64,000 nt of DNA from Moorella sp. E308F (GTDB taxonomy: Bacteria > Bacillota > DSM-521 > Neomoorellales > Neomoorellaceae). How positions within the stretch are numbered: position 1 is the stretch's first letter; every line of letters begins with the position of its first letter. Shown piece by piece: positions 39 to 33,076 of the stretch. Made by a program: the position numbers and the translations under genes. The DNA is taken from positions 365,698-429,697 of the forward strand of contig NZ_BJKN01000001.1 of assembly GCF_006538365.1 (NCBI RefSeq), in the 5' to 3' direction. The notes below the pieces were generated by a model. The model saw nothing but the letters and a program-made list of their open reading frames with translations, did not search any database and was not told the DNA's origin.

Positions 39-598
39 CAGGCCGCTACCTTGGCCTCCGCGAGGTGACGTCCCGCTTTGTGCCGGAGAAGAACTCGGCC
101 CTCCCGCGGTCCCCTGTGGCTTCACCACTTCCTCCCGCGGGCAGGCCCCTTCCGGGGGTTTCTGCTGTCTTCGCCCTTCTCGCGAACGCATCGGTCTCAC
201 CTCTGACTTGATGTTCGGGCCTTCCCCTGGAGTTCATGACCCCCAGGGTACTATGCCTTCTGCTGACTCCTGCCGGTTCAGCCGTGCCTTTCGACACGGG
301 TTGCCAGCTTTTCCTGGCTTATCCGGCAGGCCTCCCCGGGTAAGAGCGTTAACCTTCGCCCCGCGCCCGCCCCATATACTCTACCATCCCTTGGCAGCCT
401 GGGATTTCGCTGTGTTTCGCCAGCTCATCCGGATGGTCTAGCCTCCTATGGGGTTCTTGTTCATCGGGCCGTGACTTTGCCTCCGGCTTCCTCCGGATCC
501 CACCTCGCGATGGGCACCCTTGCCTTTGGCTAGCAGACTCGTGCTGCCTCGCCTGCAGTGGACTTTCACCACCAAGTTAACGCCCATGCCGGGCGCAC
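1..598 (-). mobile_element. Group II intron, bacterial class C, 5' portion (runs off left edge)
   Basis: Read on the minus strand, position 598 starts with the canonical group II intron 5' end GTGCG, followed by CCCGGCATGGGCGTT. Further in are stretches I recognise from class IIC introns such as that of Oceanobacillus iheyensis: GCAAGGGTGCCCATCGCGAG, AGGAGGCTAGACC, CTTACCCGGGGAGGCCTG and AGTCAGCAGAAGGCATAGTA. The maturase reading frame begins near position 38. The insertion point lies one or two bases past the U-tract of the acr3 terminator (599-626), which is the known target preference of class C introns. The 3' domains and the rest of the maturase lie outside the window, so completeness cannot be judged. 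The open frames covering this interval on both strands are structural RNA, not genes. Confidence 0.9.
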
Positions 599-29440: not shown

Positions 29441-31261
<1,821 letters not shown>

Positions 31262-31271
31262 ATAGAGCTCA

Positions 31272-31303
31272 CTCTCCCTTTATTTTTTTTTAACAAGGGA
31301 GAG
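31272..31303 (-). promoter_or_regulatory. Hairpin that buries the glmS ribosome binding site
   Basis: On the minus strand CTCTCCCTT (31303-31295) pairs perfectly with AAGGGAGAG (31280-31272), the Shine-Dalgarno of glmS, around an A-rich loop. No T-run follows, so it is not a terminator. It lies between the ribozyme's 3' end and the start codon. Confidence 0.65.
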
Positions 31304-31501
31304 ATAAAGGGTTACCCGACGCCCTTTGTCCCCGGGATTACTCCCGGGTTTTGTAGCGCCTTTGACGGTCGTAACCAGACCGGGGGGCACCCGCCGATAC
31401 CTCGATTAACCCCCGCCTCGTCAACCCTCCGGCACCCGCCTGCCTGGATGGCCCTCCTGGCTCACCCGGGTATAAACGGCGGGCCGGCTGGTCCCGGCGC
31501 T
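31300..31501 (-). ncRNA. glmS ribozyme/riboswitch (glucosamine-6-phosphate)
   Basis: The core of the glmS self-cleaving riboswitch is readable on the minus strand. GCGCCGGGACC (from 31500) is preceded by A, giving the cleavage site between 31501 and 31500. GACGAGGC comes next, then the hallmark ATCGAGGTATCGGCGGG (31406-31390), GGTGCCCCCCGG, and GGCGCTACAAAACCCGGGAG toward the 3' end. When glucosamine-6-phosphate accumulates, the RNA cuts itself and the glmS mRNA is destroyed. The P1 arm is unusually long: the arms around 31430-31445 and 31476-31492 add a GC-rich extension. Confidence 0.92.
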
Positions 31502-31741
31502 TGCCTTTGTCCTGATCCTTTATCTCTCCCCTTGAACCTGCTGGATAACCCGGACCTCCTGCGGCCCGGGTAAGAATCACCCCCCTTTTCCCAGAACGGA
31601 TTTCCTTATGCCCCGGCGCCACCAGGTAGTAACGGCGGTGATAAGCCGGCTTAAAACAGCCTGGCCCTTTCGTGCCCTGGGGCTGCCGGGTAATAGCGGC
31701 GCGGCAAGCCGGCAGTTCCCTGGCTCCTGTGCCGGCAGGGC
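31502..31741 (-). other. glmM-glmS intergenic leader upstream of the ribozyme
   Basis: About 240 bases between the glmM stop and the ribozyme. It has GC-rich short inverted repeats but no clear promoter. A 135-codon frame spans it and the ribozyme; I regard that as chance. Confidence 0.4.
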
Positions 31742-33076
31742 TCACAACCCGGCGGCAGCTCGCTGCAGGCCAGCCATAATGGCCTCCAGCTCTTCCCTGT
31801 CCGGGCCTTCTACCATGAGACGGATAATGGGTTCTGTTCCCGAAGGCCTGACCAGGACCCGGCCCCGGCCCGCCAGCTGCTCCCGGGCCGCCGCTACGGC
31901 TGCCAGGAGGGCAGGGCTGGCCATGGCGGCCTCTTTATCAGCCACCGTTACATTGACCAGTAGCTGGGGCAGGTGGGGCATGGCAGCCGCCAGTTCCGAC
32001 AGGGGCCGGCCGGTGGCGGCCATGACCTGTAACAGCTGCACCCCGGTAAGCAGGCCATCACCGGTAGTATTATGTTCCAGGAGGATAATGTGGCCTGACT
32101 GCTCGCCGCCCAGAACGGCACCCGTCCGTAGCATCTCCTCCAGGACATAGCGGTCGCCGACCCGGGTCTGGTGCACACGCAGGCCCGCTGCCGTGAGGGC
32201 CTGGTGGAGGCCGAAGTTGCTCATCACCGTCACCACTACCTGGCCGCCGGGCAGGCCTCCCTGCTCCTGGCGGTACAGGGCCAGGATGGTCATGATGGCA
32301 TCGCCATCGACCACCTGCCCCTTTTCATCCACGGCAATCACCCGGTCGGCGTCGCCGTCAAAGGCCAGGCCCACATCGGCCCCCCGGGCGACAACCTCAG
32401 CCTGGAGAACCTCCGGGTGGGTGGAACCGCACCCGACGTTTATATTAGTCCCATCGGGGGTATTATGCAAGGGGTAAATTTCCGCCCCCAGGCGCTGGAA
32501 AACCGCCGGCGCGACCCGGCAGGCGGCACCATAGGCGCAGTCCAGCACCACCCGCAGGCCGGCCAGGCCCCGCCCGGCGGTACTGCAGATATGGGCAATG
32601 TAGCGCTCGGCAGCCTCCTCCAGCTCCCGCACCCGCCCCAGCTCCATGCCAACCGGCCGGGGCAGGTTATCTTCCGGTTCCAGCACCAGCCGTTCAATCT
32701 CTTCTTCCACCGGGTCGGGCAGTTTGTGCCCGCTGGCGCTGAAGAATTTAATGCCGTTGTCCGCCACGGGATTGTGGGACGCCGAGATCACTACGCCGGC
32801 ATCGGCTTCCAGGGCCCGGGTCAACCAGGCTACCGCCGGGGTAGGCACCACCCCTACCTTCAGGACGTCCCCCCCGACAGAACAAATGCCGGCCACCAGG
32901 GCGGCTTCCAGCATATCGCCGGAAATACGCGTGTCCCGGCCCACCACCACCCTGGCCCGGCCTTCCGGCCCCGCCAGCACGGCGGCGCCGGCGCGTCCCA
33001 GGCGAAAGGCTAACTCCGGGGTAAGGCCGGCGTTGGCCACCCCGCGGACTCCGTCAGTACCGAATAACTTTGCCAT
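31742..33076 (-). CDS. glmM: Phosphoglucosamine mutase
   Basis: A 444-residue enzyme converting glucosamine-6-phosphate to glucosamine-1-phosphate. Recognisable parts: N-terminal FGTDGVRG, the phosphoserine loop [17 protein letters not shown] (Ser near residue 101), the metal-binding loop FDGDADRVI, sugar-binding GGEQSGHII, and the C-terminal phosphate-binding [12 protein letters not shown]. All are intact. It lies between cdaR and glmS, a conserved arrangement in Firmicutes in which c-di-AMP synthesis and cell-wall precursor supply are linked; CdaA activity is modulated by GlmM in Bacillus and Listeria. Confidence 0.98.

Follow-up and report, generated by a model that had tools for sequence, protein, structure and literature searches.

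The glmS leader in the window (the whole 64-kb stretch of the Moorella sp. E308F contig analysed here) probably carries a ribozyme responsive to glucosamine-6-phosphate (GlcN6P) that is coupled to a three-strand translational switch, a reading to which we assign a probability of about 0.6. In the uncut transcript a strand upstream of the ribozyme (A) would pair with a strand 3' of it (B), closing the ribozyme into a loop, and the strand bearing the Shine-Dalgarno (SD) region (C) would escape B, leaving the SD accessible and glmS translated. With GlcN6P plentiful, the ribozyme would cut between A and itself and A would be untethered; B would then fold onto C, the SD would be hidden and translation would stop. 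The cut mRNA would also be a substrate for RNase J, with translational shut-off acting in the same direction as decay. The features concerned are as follows.

31589-31576 (minus strand): SD-like element, AAAAGGGGGGTGAT, not followed by a start codon within 12 nt and lying within a 135-codon open frame (31745-31338).
31531-31517 (minus strand): strand A, GGGGAGAGATAAAGG, which pairs with B and would be lost from the mRNA on cleavage.
31512-31307 (minus strand): glmS ribozyme, full-length match (model positions 1-167) to Rfam RF00234 at 92.1 bits (gathering cut-off 37).
31501/31500 (minus strand): predicted self-cleavage site, between A and G at the GCGCC motif, from the Rfam alignment.
31310-31295 (minus strand): strand B, CCTTTATCTCTCCCTT, which can pair with A or, through 31303-31295, with C.
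31280-31272 (minus strand): strand C, AAGGGAGAG, the glmS SD region, masked if paired with B.
31261-29441 (minus strand): glmS coding sequence, 606 amino acids, beginning MCGIVGY (from the list of open reading frames).

The glmS ATG at 31261 is 45 nt 3' of the ribozyme match, and the ribozyme thus lies in the glmS leader. Its core motif, A followed by GCGCC, is present, we take the cut to fall between the two, and cutting would be expected to depend on GlcN6P. The long P1 extension described in the original prediction was found as an insertion at approximately 31440-31490 (minus strand) of 46 nt, compared to 4 in the Rfam consensus. The insertion is common to G001, G002, G003 and G008, and P1 is different in G004, G005, G009 and G010; because P1 varies in this way among species which all keep the three strands, its length appears unrelated to the switch. 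A promoter scan upstream of strand A found none, so that the conserved pairing and the nearby glmM are the grounds for supposing that A is transcribed. The gene order across 34928-29441 (minus strand) resembles cdaA, ybbR, glmM, glmS, judging the translations by eye. An intrinsic terminator was considered as the expression platform and rejected, as there is no U run and strand C leads through TGAGCTCTAT to the ATG; no terminator-like site was found on the minus strand in 31240-31900, the two sites returned by the scan being on the plus strand. A leader peptide running through A was likewise rejected, as indels within the genus shift the frame (by eye).

The perfect 9-bp hairpin over the glmS SD that had been proposed was borne out, with CTCTCCCTT (31303-31295) and strand C (31280-31272) pairing across a 14-nt loop without mismatch on the minus strand. 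Taken alone, such a hairpin exceeds chance expectation by little: the 64 kb contain 12 that are perfect over at least 9 bp with a loop of 3-20 nt, while 10 shuffles gave 5.0 on average (range 2-10). By a scripted score the glmS SD was the second most closed among 37 open reading frames of the window (0.11 unpaired; median 0.40). Lack of conservation in relatives had been named as grounds for dismissing the hairpin; it is kept in all nine genus loci having the ribozyme and in several other genera, with 92.2% of cells paired across 10 sequences and six of the nine pairs invariant.

The stretch originally singled out, 31272-31501, excludes strand A, which is what gives the hairpin its meaning. 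Reading of the sequence identified 15 contiguous pairs between A and B (14 Watson-Crick and one G-U), the B part being CCTTTATCTCTCCCT (31310-31296), and one further A-U pair lengthens the helix. A ends 16 nt upstream of the cut and the A:B helix spans the whole ribozyme. A:B and B:C draw on the same nine nucleotides of B, making the two helices mutually exclusive, and A and C are on opposite sides of the predicted cleavage site, with A on the side that would be discarded. The suggestion of a second, translational layer of control tied to the cleaved or uncleaved state is thus supported by sequence and prediction, although its form differs from that suggested, in that A competes for the masking strand.

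Of eleven genomes of the genus examined, nine have the ribozyme, and all three strands are present at each of these nine loci; completeness is 84 and 58% for the two genomes without a match. The two strands are GAGAGGTAAAG (A) and CTTTACCTCTC (B) in G004, G005 and G009, with both sides of one A-U pair changed to give G-C. This pair (31523:31304) is A-U in six and G-C in four of 10 sequences (the genus and G011) and is the sole two-sided change in A:B; as C does not use this position, the change is evidence for A:B only. Covariation of A:B within the genus was not above that of column shuffles (41/500 shuffles for two-sided cells, 478/500 for pairs).

The fold of the leader was compared before and after the predicted cut using RNAfold, which leaves out the ribozyme pseudoknots. 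In the window the SD was predicted to be unpaired at 0.65 in the uncut RNA (50 nt upstream included) compared to 0.10 in the cut RNA, and when the upstream 50 nt were shuffled (12 times) the mean was 0.10 and the maximum 0.23. The predicted minimum free energy structure of the uncut leader contains A:B, with the GGAG of the SD in a weak 4-bp hairpin with the CUCU preceding the ATG, while that of the cut RNA contains B:C. Across the class, 13 of 18 loci (the nine of the genus, G012, G015, G019 and G021) showed a computed openness that was higher in uncut than in cut RNA, the margin being 0.1 or more at 37 °C and also at 60 °C. The test failed in five of the 10 class genera, namely G011 (0.37 in both states at 37 °C), G016, G017 (opposite sign), G018 and G020, and at 37 °C the real upstream segments of G009, G010, G015 and G021 were each equalled in opening the SD by one or more of 12 shuffles. 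In the window we would expect A to be released by the cut and translation of glmS to be affected, in the direction of shut-off.

The predicted energies at 37 °C are -25.8 kcal/mol for A:B and -14.7 kcal/mol for B:C. With the 5' fragment at 100 nM, A:B is predicted to stay mostly annealed at 37 °C (B:C in 0.13 of the cut mRNA), while at 60 °C B:C is predicted in 0.95; at 55-60 °C B:C is predicted to win after the cut at up to about 100 nM fragment. On paper, the switch would work near the growth temperature of a thermophile. In the available part of a review, the B. subtilis glmS ribozyme is described as able to cleave co-transcriptionally; given such cleavage, A could leave before C is made.

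Predicted openness of the SD between 25 and 75 °C ranged from 0.08 to 0.22 in the cut RNA and from 0.64 to 0.74 in the uncut RNA. An RNA thermometer, in which the SD hairpin would melt on heating, has in its favour that the hairpin covers the SD and that the formate-tetrahydrofolate ligase of the genome is near PDB 4ioj (1179 bits, 558 residues), which we take to be the enzyme of the thermophile Moorella thermoacetica. The cut RNA, however, is predicted to stay closed over the whole of this range, and we regard a thermometer as highly improbable; the temperature control raised in the original prediction is accordingly dropped.

The search of the class covered 22 genomes, 19 of which had a ribozyme match, 18 above the cut-off and the last one clipped by a contig end. 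Cleavage sites were placed by hand in G020 and by a wider motif search in G015 and G016. Layouts of A, B and C could be read in, among others, G011, G012, G015, G016, G017, G019 and G021, several of them in unrelated sequence: the strands are UCCCAAGAGGG, CCCUCUUGGGA and CCUGGGAGGGU in G019 and GCGAAGGG, CCCUUCGCCCC and GGGGAGGG in G012, and G021 has a layout like that of the window, again in unrelated sequence. The SD is 128-187 nt from the ribozyme in G015, G016 and G017, and directly after it in G018, which is without the three-strand layout.

A first duplex test of A:B was weak. Helices were then scored at 85 of 170 loci, the exclusions being 60 with no SD hairpin, 18 with no recognised glmS start, six too long and one (G018) too short; helix energies were calculated from approximate stacking values with no loop terms. 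The number of shuffles (out of 300) matching the real A:B helix was 0 in G004, G005 and G017, 2 in the window, 20 in G003 and 38 in G008, and a modest 89 to 99 in G015, G020 and G021. In G019 it was 279 under a rule forbidding overlap with C, which hid the real helix, and 1 without the rule. As the dinucleotide shuffles were mixed from locus to locus, swapped-partner and position controls were used. With one locus per genus (10 loci), cognate A and B strands gave a mean of -24.0 kcal/mol compared to -15.4 kcal/mol for swapped partners, a result reached in 1 of 100,000 permutations, with the cognate as best partner in only six of 10 columns and five of 10 rows. The best helix averaged -26.0 in the 50 nt beside the cut compared to -16.1 and -14.2 in two segments farther upstream, and the nearest segment gave the best helix in 17 of 18 class loci.

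These controls bear on the explanation that the purine tract of A and the pyrimidine tract of B are chance SD-like complements, glmS being regulated, as it is in Bacillus subtilis, through nothing more than ribozyme cutting and degradation by RNase J. In favour of it, purine-rich stretches are frequent in leaders, a number of the shuffle tests were modest, and 20 of the 22 class genomes encode RNase J with a score exceeding the curated cut-off. The swapped-partner and position controls nevertheless reject chance complementarity for the class, and the layout is kept in unrelated sequences; we consider this explanation improbable.

Outside the class the signal was smaller. Among 152 loci the cognate mean was -12.9 compared to -11.4 for swapped partners (0 of 100,000 permutations; 2 of 100,000 with one locus per family and 100 of 100,000 without families f30 and f36), a small effect, and the position control was flat, the nearest segment being best in 52 of 152 loci, about a third. 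The switch is therefore not claimed as general. Clear three-strand cases were seen by eye in G054 and G130, of one family (0/300 shuffles each), and G062, whose glmS start is unrecognised, resembles the layout; in all three the sequence is unrelated to that of the window. Further loci with low shuffle counts are in G046, G058, G070, G208, G263, G291, G314, G365, G369 and G401. Among 43 named ribozyme loci, five had an upstream helix matched by at most 4 of 300 shuffles, two of which look like G019 and G015 again. On this distribution of sequences we attribute the putative switch to this class and to a scattering of other lineages, and do not regard it as universal.

The chief alternative gives A:B a different, structural role: it would be a constitutive outer helix serving ribozyme folding or leader protection, with the SD hairpin as a separate weak brake and no switch. 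In its favour, an outer helix is retained in family f30 (z < -2 in 9 of 13 loci), where no SD-masking partner was seen, and G016, G017 and G020 have A:B without a predicted opening of the SD at both temperatures. A constitutive brake, however, would need no rival strand, and the strand paired by A overlaps the SD-masking strand throughout the genus and in G012, G019, G021, G054 and G130, the nine shared nucleotides of B being the instance in the window. A constitutive helix is judged unlikely, and the three-strand switch is preferred.

At f30 loci L090, L211, L240, L286, L223, L291, L065, L284 and L265 the sequence of the outer helix varies, and the helix adjoins the SD and does not mask it. 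Upstream strands able to pair with sequence lying between the ribozyme and the SD are also present in some leaders from Selenomonas-like bacteria (L103, L108, L117, L066 and L275); by eye, only L275 (G369) and L117 share a strand with the SD hairpin, and in L108 A:B and the SD hairpin are on adjacent, unshared strands.

A second element is present upstream of the cut. The nine-letter pattern GGRGGTGRT, which we take to be an extended complement of the 16S 3' end, was sought 10-200 nt upstream of the cut and was found in 76 of 170 glmS leaders, from 21 of 76 families (6 of 43 in the named set). Forty-seven of these copies are outside long open frames, compared to 1.5 expected from shuffles and one on the other strand, and the copies of G001, G002, G003, G008 and G010 are not within a long open frame. 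Among G000-G079, the element is present in 24 of 56 glmS leaders and lies outside long open frames in 15. Nine of the 47 copies have a start codon in the 12 nt after them, below the chance expectation of about 38%, and the distance from the upstream stop codon is not fixed. No copy was found upstream of 30 SAM or 30 TPP riboswitches of the same phylum, control leaders which are not known to be operon-internal.

In the accessible text on the cry3A mRNA, an element of this kind (STAB-SD) binds 30S subunits and blocks RNase J1. The glmS element resembles it as SD-like sequence in a 5' leader, mostly without a start codon after it, and may likewise not serve to start translation; it differs in being upstream of a self-cleavage site, so that it would be removable on signal. 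By analogy, it is plausible that cleavage removes a stabiliser. It may be, further, that the cut serves mainly to separate the message from this putative 30S-bound roadblock to RNase J, the SD hairpin being secondary, an account compatible with the switch. The excess over shuffles, the scarcity of start codons after the element, the SAM and TPP leaders and the cry3A precedent point this way; against it, 29 of the 76 copies are inside long open frames, the window's own among them, the families with the element are a minority, and the SAM and TPP comparison carries the limit given above. As the main account we find it rather unlikely.

A tentative combination of the three-strand switch with this element, which we hold to be possible though not probable, is that one cut disarms the message twice: a putative ribosome-binding stabiliser (in many lineages) and the SD-opening strand (in this class) would both be discarded, leaving the mRNA unprotected from RNase J and closed to ribosomes. 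Were this so, the glmS ribozyme would count as a genuine riboswitch whose expression platform is set by the loss of a strand, a natural ribozyme switching translation by discarding an anti-anti-SD strand. The SD-like element upstream of the cut could also help to explain the instability of the mRNA after leader cleavage.

Translational riboswitches with anti-SD and anti-anti-SD strands exist as a class, and the proposed switch is like them in that mutually exclusive strands would decide whether the SD is free. It would differ in that a strand is lost irreversibly by RNA cleavage, whereas in the known class a ligand stabilises refolding. The B. subtilis glmS ribozyme matches that of the window in model (RF00234), gene, encoded RNase J, expected signal (GlcN6P) and sign (off at high product). 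Its known route, as far as the available sources describe it, is cleavage followed by RNase J1 decay, whereas the window adds a candidate translational platform whose control strand is upstream of the cut. In Clostridioides difficile, according to the part of the literature available, a c-di-GMP-II riboswitch acts with a group I ribozyme and, similarly, translatability of the message depends on the reaction of a ribozyme; there the control is allosteric and splicing turns expression on, whereas self-cleavage in the glmS leader would switch it off, with the ligand as the cofactor.

Among riboswitches the glmS ribozyme is customarily treated as an exception, said to act by cutting its mRNA for decay, and in the available portions of a 2007 survey and a 2024 review it is distinguished from those having expression platforms. 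In the accessible part of a 2026 study (PMC13273304), expression platforms of glmS were sought through terminator prediction and the sequence 3' of the aptamer, and were judged not common; searches of the 3' sequence such as this one would overlook a control strand located in the part of the leader that is discarded. Among the titles and openings of abstracts covered, a set with the main glmS surveys and most subscription papers beyond its reach, no glmS ribozyme with an SD-masking switch or an upstream SD-like element was described. On the models presented here, a glmS ribozyme with a candidate translational expression platform is what would be new.

Two minor observations were made. Group II intron domains (Rfam group-II-D1D4-1 and -3) are present at the edge of the window (218-514, minus strand). 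In addition, the GlmS of a metagenome-assembled genome, L042, which is the same locus as L097 (JAAYGJ010000065.1), starts MSGIVGY, with serine at what we presume to be the position of the catalytic cysteine, a change that may be real or an assembly error.
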